Part shown: one piece after another, positions 5,174 through 11,050 of the stretch | Numbering within the stretch: position 1 is the first letter of the stretch | Layout: each line of letters begins with the position of its first letter | From: Hyphomicrobiales bacterium | Lineage (GTDB): Bacteria; Pseudomonadota; Alphaproteobacteria; Rhizobiales; Xanthobacteraceae | Assembly (NCBI GenBank): GCA_017305595.1 | Contig: JAFKKL010000027.1 | Location: forward strand, 1-32,555 | Reading direction: 5' to 3' | DNA: 32,555 bases | The notes under the pieces: generated by a model | The model's input: the letters and a program-made list of their open reading frames with translations, nothing else | The model's database searches: none | Told to the model about the DNA's origin: nothing | Position numbers and translations under genes: made by a program

Positions 5174-5695
5174 TTGAGACGTCAAACAGCGACAGGCGGG
5201 ATCAATCCCGCAGGGTCGAGCCGCATTGCACGGCTCGACCCCCACTCACTCCCGGTCAGCTTCGAGGCGCACGACACGCGCGCCGACGGCAACGTCCGGC
5301 ACATCGAAATGCATCGCGAACATATCGTCCTGCGCCGCGCCGTTCACGGCATGCACATGGCGATCAACGTGCGGGTGCGCGACTTCCTCGGCGTGGCGAT
5401 CCGCGACCGTGGCGAGACGCAGATGCTGGTGCTGATGCATCGCGATCCGTCGTTGTCGGTGCCGTTGTGCGAGATCGACGATCCGGAAGCGATCAACGAT
5501 ACCTGGCAATCGTGGAGCGATCTCTTCGCGCTGCCGCAGCTCGTCGAGTTCAAGCGTCAGCCGGCGCAGCGCCGCCGCCGCCGCAACGCGGTCGCCAAAC
5601 GCCGCCCGCGCTTCCTCGCCCGCCGCCGCGCCGGAGAGATGCCGAGCGTGCCTATGATTCATCGCGGCGAATTCGAGATCATCGCGCGGGATTGA
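5174..5695 (+). CDS. DUF6101 family protein
   Basis: A 173-residue conserved protein with no signal peptide or membrane segment. The N-terminus MRRQTATGGINPAGSSRIARLDP and the core HIEMHREHIVLRRAVHGMHMAINVRVRDFLGVAIR, MLVLMHRDPSLSVPL match my memory of DUF6101, a family seen in Bradyrhizobium relatives. The C-terminal part is strongly basic (an Arg-rich run near residues 133-155) and could bind nucleic acid or membranes. Function is unknown. The start is TTG at 5174, supported by GGGGAG about 9 bases upstream. The gene is divergent from pmbA and converges on ubiA across a palindromic repeat. Confidence 0.8.
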   Translation: MRRQTATGGINPAGSSRIARLDPHSLPVSFEAHDTRADGNVRHIEMHREHIVLRRAVHGMHMAINVRVRDFLGVAIRDRGETQMLVLMHRDPSLSVPLCEIDDPEAINDTWQSWSDLFALPQLVEFKRQPAQRRRRRNAVAKRRPRFLARRRAGEMPSVPMIHRGEFEIIARD

Positions 5696-5736
5696 GTAGC
5701 TGCGCCGTTGCGAGAAGCGAGGCGACAACCACTCTC

Positions 5737-5827
5737 CGTCATGCCCGGGCTCGTCCCGGGCATCCACGTCTTGACTAACATCACAGCAATGAAGACGTGG
5801 ATGGTCGGAACAAGTCCGGCCATGACG
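5737..5827. repeat. Palindromic intergenic repeat, copy 1
   Basis: The element begins CGTCATGCCCGGGC and ends with its near mirror, GTCCGGCCATGACG. Inside, CATCCACGTCTT (5761-5772) is the exact inverse of AAGACGTGGATG (5792-5803), so the whole can fold into nested hairpins. It sits between the convergent DUF6101 gene and ubiA. It belongs to the same family as the copies at 7809, 20660 and 30877. Such REP-like units are common in Bradyrhizobium relatives. Confidence 0.8.
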
Positions 5828-5884
5828 ACTAGTGTCTCATCGACGTTGTAACCAACGGGCTCCCGCCTTCGCAGGGACGACCAG

Positions 5885-6817
5885 CTAGGCTGCCCGCAAC
5901 ACCGCGTCGATCACCAGCATCGCGAACAGCAATAGTCCGGCGTCGCGGTTGGATTTGAAGATGCGCAGGCACAGCGCGGAATCCGAAATATCGAGTCGGC
6001 GCACCTGCCACGCCAGATGCGCGGCGAAGGCGGCGAGTCCGAGCGCCGCCGGCCAGCCCGCGCCGGCAAGCCACAGCGCGATGCCGATCAACACGACAGC
6101 AGCGGAATAGAAAATCGTCAGCGCAGGTTTCGTCTTGTCGCCGAACAAGAGCGCCGTCGACTTGATGCCGACCAGCACGTCGTCCTCGGTGTCCTGATGC
6201 GCGTAGATCGTGTCGTAGGCGATCACCCAGCAGATCGAGCCGGCGTAAAGCACCAGCGCGGCGGGATCGAGCCGCCCGAGCGTCACCGCGAAACCCATCA
6301 GCGCGCCCCACGAGAACGCGAGACCGAGCGTAATCTGCGGCCAATAAGTGATCCGCTTCATGAACGGATAGACCGCGACGATCGCCAGCGATGCAATGCC
6401 GGTGAAAATCGCGAAGCGGTTGAACTGCACCAGCACCGCGAGCCCGACCATCGCCTGCAACACCAGGAACACGAATGCCTGCGTCACGCTCACCTGCCCG
6501 GCCGGGATCGGCCGCGAACGGGTGCGCTCCACTTTGGTATCGAGATTGCGGTCGGTGATGTCGTTCCAGGTGCAGCCCGCGCCGCGCATCACGAACGCGC
6601 CGATGAAAAACAGCAACACGGTGAGCGGCAGGCCGCTGACATCGCGTGCGACGCCGGAAGCCAGCGCCGCCGACCACCAGCACGGCATCAGCAGCAGCCA
6701 CGAGCCGATCGGGCGGTCGTAACGCGCAAGGCGGAGATAAGGACGCGTCCACTCAGGCGCGCGGTTGTCGACCCAGTTGCCGACGGAATCGGCGACGCGG
6801 GCGGTCGCGCCGCTCAT
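5885..6817 (-). CDS. ubiA: 4-hydroxybenzoate polyprenyltransferase
   Basis: UbiA is the integral membrane enzyme that attaches the polyprenyl tail to 4-hydroxybenzoate in ubiquinone synthesis. The 310-residue protein has the family's alternating hydrophobic helices and both aspartate-rich motifs: NDITDRNLD (residues 85-93, the NDxxDxxxD form that binds the Mg-diphosphate) and YDTIYAHQDTEDD (201-213). RSRPIPAGQVS follows the first motif as in other UbiA proteins. The N-terminal tail PEWTRPYLRLARYDRPIGSWLL is typical of the proteobacterial 4-hydroxybenzoate type. The start is ATG 6817; no strong Shine-Dalgarno sequence is visible. It lies 28 bases downstream of the secreted proline-rich gene on the same strand and may be co-transcribed with it. 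Confidence 0.96.
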   Translation of the reverse strand: MSGATARVADSVGNWVDNRAPEWTRPYLRLARYDRPIGSWLLLMPCWWSAALASGVARDVSGLPLTVLLFFIGAFVMRGAGCTWNDITDRNLDTKVERTRSRPIPAGQVSVTQAFVFLVLQAMVGLAVLVQFNRFAIFTGIASLAIVAVYPFMKRITYWPQITLGLAFSWGALMGFAVTLGRLDPAALVLYAGSICWVIAYDTIYAHQDTEDDVLVGIKSTALLFGDKTKPALTIFYSAAVVLIGIALWLAGAGWPAALGLAAFAAHLAWQVRRLDISDSALCLRIFKSNRDAGLLLFAMLVIDAVLRAA

Positions 6818-8851: not shown

Positions 8852-8881
8852 TTGCAAGTGACTTGCATCTGCATCTTTAAT
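8852..8881 (+). promoter_or_regulatory. Likely promoter of the TonB receptor gene
   Basis: TTGCAA (8852-8857) and TTTAAT (8876-8881) are separated by 18 bases and would serve as -35 and -10 elements. Transcription would then start near 8888, leaving a leader of about 24 bases. The -35 lies inside the first Fur-type operator and the start region inside the second, a layout that suits repression. Confidence 0.5.
8853..8867. promoter_or_regulatory. Fur-family-type operator 1 (perfect 7-1-7 palindrome)
   Basis: TGCAAGTGACTTGCA is a perfect inverted repeat of seven bases either side of one central base. The 7-1-7 geometry is classic for Fur-family metalloregulators, and TGCAA/TTGCA half-sites are reported for alphaproteobacterial Fur/Mur-type regulators. 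It overlaps the probable -35 element of the TonB receptor gene. Confidence 0.6.
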
Positions 8882-8886
8882 GCTTT

Positions 8887-8901
8887 TGCAAATTAGTTGC
8901 A
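8887..8901. promoter_or_regulatory. Fur-family-type operator 2 (7-1-7, one mismatch)
   Basis: TGCAAATTAGTTGCA repeats the TGCAA-N5-TTGCA pattern of operator 1, with a single mismatch in the arms. The two sites are 34 bases apart centre to centre, close to three helical turns. Its last base touches the Shine-Dalgarno sequence AGGAG (8901-8905), so a bound dimer would cover the start of transcription. Confidence 0.6.
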
Positions 8902-8911
8902 GGAGAACTTA

Positions 8912-11050
8912 ATGAAACGAGCGGTATGGGTCGCGGGACTGGCGTGTCTGGTCGGCGCGCCGGCCTCCGACGTCCGCGCCCAGGAGGAACTGCCGGAAAT
9001 CACCGTCAGGGCGCCGAAGCCGGCCAAGCGTCGGGCCCGCGTCGCGGTCCGCCCTCCCGCTCCCGCGCCGGCCCCGGCACTGCCTCTATCCGTCGCTCCG
9101 GAAGAGCCGCGTCCCGACGCGCCGCTCGCCTCCGAAAGCCGGCTGACCGCCGAACAGGTCCTCGGGCGCGGCGCGGCTTCTCTCGGCGACACCCTCGGCA
9201 CGACGCCCGGCGTCTCGGCGACATCGTTCTCACCGGTGGCGAGCCGCCCGGTGATCCGGGGTCTTGGCGGCTTCCGGGTGCGAACCCAGGAGAACGGCAT
9301 CGGCTCCGCCGACATGGCCAATCTCGGGGAAGACCATGCCGTGGTGATCGACCCATTGGCGGCACAGAGCGTCGAGGTCATTCGCGGCCCCGGCACGCTG
9401 CGCTATGGCTCGCAGGCGACCGGCGGCGTGGTCAGCGCCAGCAACAACCGCATTCCCACGGCAATCCCGAAAAACGGCGCGTCGTTCGAGGCGCGCGGCG
9501 GCCTCAACAGCGTCAGCAACAGCCGCGACGGCACCGTGCAACTCGATGCCGGCGGCGGCAACGTCGCGATCCATGCGGATGCCTACACCCGGAAGGCCGG
9601 CGATTATCGCATCCCCGGCGGCGTGCAGGCCAATTCCAGCTATCGCGCCGAGGGCCACGCGATCGGGGGCTCCTACGTCTTCGATCGCGGGTTCGTCGGC
9701 ATGTCGTTTCAGGACACGGCGATGACCTACTTCATCCCCGGCATCGATTCCGCGAGAGTGAAGAACCACATCGACCTGCGCCAGAAGAAATGGACAAGCC
9801 GTGGCGAATGGCGCGTCGGCGAGGGCGGCATCGACACGGTGCGCTACTGGCTCGGCTATACCGACTATCACCACAACGAGATCAACGGCGTCGACGCAAA
9901 CGCGCAGATCGGCTCGCGATTCAAGAACCGCGAATTCGAATCGCGGATCGAAGTCGCGCACCTGCCTTTCACCACAATGCTGGGCGAATTGCGCGGCTCG
10001 GCCGGCGTGCAATGGAGCCGGCGCGATCTGTCGGTCGCCGGCGCGACCGAATCCCTGCTCGCACCGGCGCAGAATACCAATCTCGCCGCCTTCGTGTTCG
10101 AGGAACTGCGGATGGCGCCGCGCCTGCGCGCGCAGGGTGCGCTGCGCATCGAACAGACCGAAACCAACGGCACCGGCGCGCAATTTCCCGCGAACTACCT
10201 GCCGCCGCCCGAACAGCCCACGGTGTTTCCGGTCGACCGCCGTTTCATGCCGGTCAGCGCCAGCGCCGGGCTGCTCTACGATCTGCCGCACGACATCGTC
10301 GCGCGCGTGACCGTCCAGCATGTCGAGCGCGCCCCCGATCCCATCGAGCTGTTCTACAAGGGGCCGCACGATACGCCGCGCACGTTCGAGATCGGCGATC
10401 CGACCATGACGCTGGAAAAGGCCAACACCCTCGAACTCGGTTTCAAGCGTGCGCGCGGCGATACCCGCTTCGAACTGTCGATCTATCACACACGCTATCA
10501 GAACTTCATCTTCAAGAATTTCACCGGCGTCCGCTGCAACGAGAGTTTCGCATCCTGCGGCACGCCAGGCGCGAGCTACGACCAGATCATCTATTCGCAG
10601 CGCGACGCCCGCTTCACCGGCGGCGAATTGCAGATCGAGCATGACGTCGCGCGCGTATGGAACGGCGTGTTTGGCGTCGAGGCGCAATACGACATCGTCC
10701 ACGCCACCTTCGCCGATGGCAGTTACGTGCCGAAGATTCCCCCGCAGCGGCTCGGCGGCGGCGTCTACTATCGCGACCCGAACTGGACCGCGCGCGTCAA
10801 CCTGCTGCACGCCTTCGCCCAGACTAACCTCGGTGCGTTCGAAACGCCGACGCCGGGCTTCAACCTGCTCAATGCCGAAATCAGTCACACCACGACATTG
10901 CCGAACGGCGACTGGCCGGTGACGCTCACCATCGGCTTCAAGGGCGAGAACCTGCTAGACGCCGACATCCGCTTCCACCAGTCCTACAAGAAGGACGAAG
11001 TGCTTCAGCCCGGTCGCAATATCCGCCTGTTCACCTCGATGAAGTTCTGA
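8912..11050 (+). CDS. TonB-dependent outer-membrane receptor (ZnuD-like, metal or metallophore uptake)
   Basis: A 712-residue outer-membrane gated channel. The signal peptide is MKRAVWVAGLACLVGAPASDVRAQ. EELPEITVRAP (residues 25-35) resembles a TonB box. A Lys/Arg then Pro/Ala-rich spacer (about 36-75) precedes the plug domain: VLGRGAASLGDTLGTTPGV, RPVIRGLGGFRVRTQENG and VEVIRGPGTLRYGSQATGGVV. The rest is a beta-barrel ending in aromatic Phe (TSMKF). The C-terminal GENLLDADIRFHQSYKKDEVLQPG resembles ZnuD-type receptors. I chose ATG 8912 over the in-frame 8897 because AGGAG (8901-8905) lies 6 bases before it and the signal peptide then starts cleanly. The promoter carries two Fur-type operators, so transport of a metal or metal complex is likely; which metal is not decided by the sequence. 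Confidence 0.9.
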   Translation: MKRAVWVAGLACLVGAPASDVRAQEELPEITVRAPKPAKRRARVAVRPPAPAPAPALPLSVAPEEPRPDAPLASESRLTAEQVLGRGAASLGDTLGTTPGVSATSFSPVASRPVIRGLGGFRVRTQENGIGSADMANLGEDHAVVIDPLAAQSVEVIRGPGTLRYGSQATGGVVSASNNRIPTAIPKNGASFEARGGLNSVSNSRDGTVQLDAGGGNVAIHADAYTRKAGDYRIPGGVQANSSYRAEGHAIGGSYVFDRGFVGMSFQDTAMTYFIPGIDSARVKNHIDLRQKKWTSRGEWRVGEGGIDTVRYWLGYTDYHHNEINGVDANAQIGSRFKNREFESRIEVAHLPFTTMLGELRGSAGVQWSRRDLSVAGATESLLAPAQNTNLAAFVFEELRMAPRLRAQGALRIEQTETNGTGAQFPANYLPPPEQPTVFPVDRRFMPVSASAGLLYDLPHDIVARVTVQHVERAPDPIELFYKGPHDTPRTFEIGDPTMTLEKANTLELGFKRARGDTRFELSIYHTRYQNFIFKNFTGVRCNESFASCGTPGASYDQIIYSQRDARFTGGELQIEHDVARVWNGVFGVEAQYDIVHATFADGSYVPKIPPQRLGGGVYYRDPNWTARVNLLHAFAQTNLGAFETPTPGFNLLNAEISHTTTLPNGDWPVTLTIGFKGENLLDADIRFHQSYKKDEVLQPGRNIRLFTSMKF

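Follow-up and report, generated by a model that had tools for sequence, protein, structure and literature searches.

The window analysed here is a 32,555-nucleotide stretch of DNA from a Hyphomicrobiales bacterium (contig JAFKKL010000027.1). It carries a gene for a ZnuD-like TonB-dependent receptor, and just upstream of this gene lie two palindromes that we read as putative Mur-type operators. The features of the promoter region and of the gene are these:

8852-8857, plus strand: candidate -35 element TTGCAA, placed by eye; box 1 overlaps it
8853-8867, no strand assigned: box 1, putative Mur-type operator, TGCAAGTGACTTGCA, a perfect 7-1-7 palindrome
8870-8884, no strand assigned: imperfect palindrome TGCATCTTTAATGCT, at the exact midpoint of the two boxes, in a 17-bp register
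8876-8881, plus strand: candidate -10 element TTTAAT, placed by eye, 18 bp past the candidate -35
8887-8901, no strand assigned: box 2, putative Mur-type operator, TGCAAATTAGTTGCA, a 7-1-7 palindrome with one mismatched pair
8901-8905, plus strand: Shine-Dalgarno sequence AGGAG, read from the sequence, touching the end of box 2
8912-11050, plus strand: ZnuD-like TonB-dependent receptor P0001, 712 aa, ATG at 8912, assigned by domain and structure matches

A sequence-only reading of this DNA had described the first box as a perfect 7-1-7 palindrome and the second as a repeat of it 34 bases on with one mismatch, and the sequence confirms both statements (34 bp, start to start). The same reading had placed the boxes over the promoter, and here the outcome was mixed. 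The Shine-Dalgarno sequence does abut box 2 and a -35 element placed by eye does lie under box 1, the candidate -35/-10 pair with its 18-bp spacer fitting 9 of 12 consensus positions by eye; however, no promoter before the receptor came out of a sigma-70 consensus scan, in which the second base of the -10 element has to be A. This placement of the promoter before the ATG is only plausible, and from it would follow that box 1 covers the -35 element and box 2 the start region.

The imperfect palindrome midway between the boxes was considered as a third tandem Mur box in a 17-bp register and rejected, its score with the Mur matrix described below being -4.6. It pairs 4 of 7 positions, and 6.7% of shuffles do as well. 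The sequence TGCAT-N5-RTGCW occupies this middle position in the eight of 15 orthologous promoters that have 34-bp spacing; the middle palindromes of those eight score from -4.6 to 11.7 (the latter in L022), and three of them pair 6 of 7 positions, which fewer than 0.4% of shuffles reach. To us the segment is more likely the -10 region than a further Mur box. Patterns for other metal regulators were also sought, using Zur-type and Irr-type consensus sequences; the Irr box (ICE) is an inverted repeat of the type TTTAGAA-N3-TTCTAAA. No Zur-type GTTA-N5-TAAC or one-mismatch GTTATA-N2-ATAAC sequence was found in the 400 bp upstream of the receptor, and no Irr-type sequence with up to two mismatches was found on the window's contig. 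Rfam and tRNA searches contributed nothing to the interpretation.

P0001 matches the plug domain (PF07715, 62.7 bits) and the barrel domain (PF00593, 106.8 bits) above the Pfam cut-offs, and among solved structures ZnuD (4rdr, E 1.6e-55) is its nearest match. The high-affinity zinc site of ZnuD is formed by D99, H100, E340 and H499 (PMC4557270). All four ligands are kept in P0001 (D141, H142, E323 and H486) and in 45 of 49 aligned homologues, with DHED in three others and one incomplete. The earlier description of the receptor as ZnuD-like is thus upheld by structure and ligands, yet with the NCBIfam ZnuD model P0001 reaches 263.5 bits, far under the cut-off of 950. Because its zinc-site ligands are unchanged, P0001 may still take zinc, and the receptor sequence by itself does not say manganese; it is the regulation that does. 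The His/Asp clusters in loop 3 of ZnuD are absent from P0001, in which 14 residues (FIPGIDSARVKNHI) replace the long ZnuD loop. Loss of the loop-3 His cluster was rejected as a sign of manganese, since 49 of 49 aligned homologues, Zur-boxed relatives included, lack the clusters and have a loop of 13–15 residues. At the loop-3 end, His is found in 7 of 7 rows of the window's clade (clade A) versus Arg in 40 of 42 others, which may be a lead for specificity and nothing beyond that.

How often the motif arises by chance depends strongly on how strictly it is defined. Exact matches to TGCAA-N5-TTGCA in the window are the two boxes only. With up to two mismatches, 18 were observed against 11.8 expected, and such loose matches carry no meaning since 6 of 100 shuffles reach 18. 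The exact motif occurs at five sites in the 4.67-Mb assembly and the reversed control at none; the one-mismatch counts are 71 versus 56 in the control, mostly noise, so that strict matches alone carry weight. A refined pattern, TGCRANTNANTYGCA, has four sites in the own genome, namely box 1, box 2, C141:2862 before mntH and C224:46211 before an OprB-type porin gene, and none for the reversed control. Across 17 genomes it has 32 sites versus six for the control. A genome scan for the motif before metal-transport genes, as the earlier reading had proposed, did lead to mntH, and to the porin as well; the random scatter that the same reading had set against its own claim was not seen for the strict motif.

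We also built a Mur matrix from 14 distinct mntH-upstream sites of relatives, with receptor sites not included. With this matrix, box 2 (24.2) is the best site in the window and box 1 (18.3) the second, the next 15-mer scoring 9.5. First-order random sequence of 1.95 Mb contained seven sites scoring at least 18, which corresponds to ~0.12 per window, where two were found 34 bp apart. Per 4.67-Mb genome ~17 random sites of this score are expected, and hence a score of 18 alone proves nothing elsewhere in the genome. That the half-sites are of the Fur/Mur type and not the Zur type, as had been proposed, gains from these two ranks and from the Zur-free 400 bp upstream; the binding itself is predicted.

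The first letter of the C141:2862 site is 44 bp upstream of the ATG chosen for mntH, whose product (P0002) scores 660.7 bits with NCBIfam MntH (cut-off 430). The search for mntH gave matches in 56 of 101 genomes, and 26 of the 30 best-scoring loci from these genomes carry the motif upstream, one mismatch being allowed, whereas four do not. The C224:46211 site lies 189 bp before a gene with OMP_b-brl and OprB domains, that is, the porin gene, and the motif also precedes the counterpart porin genes in L148, L150 and L151. The own porin gene (L147:1288-2523, contig C224) encodes 411 aa versus 655–659 aa in these three relatives, and a frame break or an assembly error would probably account for its shortness. 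In G065, which represents another family, the motif precedes a gene for a ZnuA-family binding protein (Pfam, 293.5 bits); its assignment as SitA/MntA was rejected, its best NCBIfam models being AztC (zinc) and EfaA (Mn/Fe), both below cut-off. One of the five exact sites (C152) is located inside a TniB gene and has a matrix score of 12.2. Another of the five, a strong Mur-type site scoring 20.8, is C276:140-154 (L005, L072), located beyond an S-adenosylhomocysteine hydrolase gene where the contig ends; no target gene was found for it.

A search of the assembly for Fur-family proteins gave three; with 392 contigs and 94% completeness, the assembly may lack some regulators or sites. P0004 is IrrA (221.3 bits, cut-off 150), and for P0005 the best fit is Zur (113 bits, below the cut-off of 167). 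P0003 is the sole protein of the Fur/Mur type among the three. Its best NCBIfam model is the iron Fur (102.1 bits, below the cut-off of 146), and its best solved relatives are 5fd6 and 5fd5 (196 bits), deposited as ferric uptake regulation protein, which we take to be Rhizobium Mur. Fur and Mur are relatives, and the sequence of P0003 does not tell them apart.

The zinc-type and iron-type boxes of the genome sit at other genes. Upstream of zigA (633.9 bits, cut-off 600) there are overlapping, perfect Zur-type boxes (L213:2226-2243, C239); bfr (209.6 bits, cut-off 125.55) has a perfect Irr-type box in front of it (L210:340-356, C307). Zur patterns with mismatches occur seven and five times in the own assembly against four and nine for the controls, and the Irr pattern with up to two mismatches at three places against six for the control. 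Mismatched patterns being no commoner than controls, only the perfect boxes together with their genes count. The own genome also has a second ZnuD-like paralog (L050), whose upstream Zur-type box has one mismatch; it is used as evidence here because it recurs in relatives.

Of 391 family genomes, 13 have a close orthologue of the receptor (defined at E ≤ 1e-215), as do two genomes of Bradyrhizobium, those of B. diversitatis and B. murdochi. A separate nine-locus orthologue set also includes Nitrobacter sp. Nb-311A and N. vulgaris; seven of its loci have the same contig coordinates as family-genome loci and were counted once in the 15. Scans covered 900 bp upstream for loci with a leader and 400 bp otherwise (for L029 only 230 bp). 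It turned out that, with each genome counted once, a Mur-type site scoring at least 8 is present in every one of the 15 orthologous promoters, and that these promoters reach down to ~60% protein identity. Two such sites are present in 14, and the second site of the fifteenth prints as 8.0. A single promoter of the set, that of L025, has in addition a Zur-type box a long way upstream (-284). The 34-bp spacing, earlier read as two dimers about three turns apart, holds for the own promoter but does not appear essential: it is found in eight of the 15 promoters, the others having 28, 31, 32, 33, 38, 54 and 54 bp. Having two boxes is thus a conserved trait, whereas the spacing between them ranges from 28 to 54 bp.

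Each of the seven examined genomes in which the window's receptor clade occurs has, in addition, a Zur-boxed paralog. The own paralog locus (L050:2286-2771; contig C343, about 5685-6170) consists of the Zur-type box GTTACATTATAAC, then a DUF2946/CruR-like leader ORF, then the receptor. The leader ORF has CXXC and a C-terminal RAPP motif, as have the copper-responsive CruR leaders (PMC9426467). Such leaders are present at 21 of 50 receptor loci, with a Zur-type box near the leader start in 20 of the 21 by a loose rule (-250 to +200) and in 17 by a stricter one. The idea that the own leader-bearing paralog is a copper receptor was set aside, because with Zur-type boxes near most leader starts zinc, by itself or in combination with copper, is equally likely. 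Double control of loci of this type, by Zur and by a metal-sensing leader, is possible.

Among 43 ZnuD-like loci outside the window's clade, a Zur-type box was found in 27 and a Mur-type site scoring at least 8 in five: L027, L030, L033 and, more weakly, L036 (12.0, at -357) and L037 (9.2). A second clade (clade C; L180-L206, 27 members in two genera) includes L027 and L033; in it, 26 of 27 loci have a Mur-type site and all 27 have Asp in place of ZnuD His-499, the fourth zinc ligand. Three more distant members listed beside this clade keep His and have no Mur site. The L030 receptor falls outside both Mur clades. At its locus, an exact Mur-type box lies 106 bp upstream of the receptor start, between the receptor gene and a divergent CDF exporter gene (L030:3775-4662) that is closest to the manganese exporter MntE (444.2 bits, below the cut-off of 500). 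The receptor encoded at L037:1240-4428 (G031) is ZnuD-like but 1063 aa long, residues 822-1056 forming an extra OMP_b-brl domain; it has Asp at the fourth ligand position in addition to its weak Mur-type site.

Two independent recruitments into the Mur regulon were considered and not retained as a firm claim. A single clade consisting of just the two Mur clades is rejected by an AU test (p 0.037), but together with L037 the two form one side of a branch (support 34), and an earlier tree placed the clades differently. That first tree left out L037, with its 1063 aa, and L068, a fragment; the second comprised 10 of 15 clade-A rows, 8 of 27 clade-C rows and 28 others, with residues 101-860 only of L037.

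Taken together, we consider it probable, with some reserve, that the two boxes are Mur operators, that they mediate manganese-dependent repression of the receptor gene along with the mntH and porin genes, and that the receptor is an importer of Mn2+. The case for manganese via Mur is built on regulation: the same motif stands before the own mntH and before most mntH loci of the set of 30, and the perfect zinc-type and iron-type boxes sit elsewhere, at zigA and bfr. In R. leguminosarum, Mur is described as an Mn2+-responsive repressor of mntH and sitABCD (PMC5575495). When Mn2+ is sufficient in the cell, Mur (P0003) would bind both boxes and, manganese-loaded, would block RNA polymerase from the -35 element to the start region. 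Bound Mur would shut off the receptor gene together with the mntH and porin genes, which have the same box; upon manganese shortage Mur would leave, and receptor, porin and MntH would come on together. The ZnuD-type receptor would then carry Mn2+ into the periplasm, driven by TonB, with the porin as a further entry through the outer membrane, and MntH would bring periplasmic Mn2+ across the inner membrane into the cytoplasm. Which metal is concerned had been left between iron, manganese and zinc; regulation sharpens this to manganese, more weakly against iron, and the cargo is deduced from it.

The other explanations differ in how much of this they give up. Chance palindromes without function, for which the abundance of loose matches might speak, are barely credible: the boxes make up two of the five exact sites in the whole assembly, the expected number of comparable sites per window is far below one, and every orthologous promoter has a Mur-type site. 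Zur operators serving a zinc receptor would agree with the ZnuD-like family of P0001, but they are highly improbable, given that the Zur-type boxes of this genome are at zigA and the paralog and not in the 400 bp before the receptor. If instead P0003 were an iron-sensing Fur and the receptor served iron, its best NCBIfam model, even below cut-off, would be accounted for. In alphaproteobacteria, Fur and Mur recognize sites of the same type, which also counts for this reading. It keeps a small probability because Mur affects iron genes in Rhodobacter as well (PMC3413700). We nevertheless find it unlikely, as the four refined sites of the own genome sit at mntH, the porin and the receptor (with two boxes), and IrrA is encoded in the genome, where bfr has a perfect Irr-type box in front of it.

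The alternative with the most in its favour, still an unlikely one in our view though less so than iron, accepts Mur as the regulator and lets the receptor go on importing zinc or several divalent metals, a switch of regulator without a switch of cargo. The four kept ligands, shared with most homologues, fit it well. On the other hand, a zinc receptor would hardly be expected to keep Mur-type sites in all 15 orthologues, and a Zur-boxed ZnuD-like paralog is already present in this genome. Manganese import under Mur thus remains our preferred reading. On a wider scale we would suggest, tentatively, that ZnuD-type zinc receptors became dedicated to manganese through the Mur regulon, in a family that includes Nitrobacter and Bradyrhizobium, one branch having changed the His ligand to Asp and the window's branch having left its ligands unchanged. 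Asp, as an oxygen ligand at the fourth position, should suit Mn2+ better.

Manganese entry through the outer membrane is described as poorly understood, with MnoP, OmpU and TseM-MnoT as named routes (PMC9334652) and an MntR-controlled receptor as a recent addition (PMC13217887). Receptors annotated as ZnuD-like need not serve zinc. A Mur-boxed receptor and a Zur-boxed paralog in one genome offer a direct route to the residues that set the metal of a TonB receptor, and, if our reading is true, such pairs represent a natural experiment in metal change.

Several known systems resemble this one in part. The Mur operators of rhizobial mntH and sitABCD (PMC5575495) are likewise Fur-family sites before manganese-uptake genes; here, by contrast, the gene is that of a TonB-dependent receptor and has two boxes, and the comparison with Rhizobium is one of kind. 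Neisseria ZnuD (PMC4557270; 4rdr) shares its fold family and four high-affinity ligands with P0001, but P0001 stays below the NCBIfam cut-off, lacks the loop-3 clusters and has Mur-type boxes and no Zur-type box. Caulobacter ZnuK, ZnuL and ZnuM (PMC4176598) are alphaproteobacterial TonB-dependent receptors under a Fur-family metal sensor as well, although that source describes them as controlled by Zur through GTTA-N5-TAAC boxes, which the receptor here is without.

Closer in metal are three further systems, all compared by description. Burkholderia MnoT (PMC8602904, PMC9334652) is also a TonB-dependent receptor tied to manganese, but is reported there to work with a secreted protein, TseM. 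The Stenotrophomonas CQNC receptor (PMC13217887), likewise a TonB receptor, belongs to a manganese regulon together with mntH; there, however, the regulator is MntR and the receptor is characterized by the CQNC motif. Bradyrhizobium MnoP (PMC9334652, PMC6011978) provides outer-membrane manganese entry as a porin-type channel, unlike P0001, and the own Mur-boxed porin may be its counterpart. None of the titles listed in literature searches concerned a Mur-controlled ZnuD-type receptor, and a Mur site before this receptor may already be among the 2006 predictions of alphaproteobacterial regulons. Set beside these systems, the kind of operator is already known, and a ZnuD-type receptor in the Mur (manganese) regulon would be a new variant, as judged from its predicted regulation.
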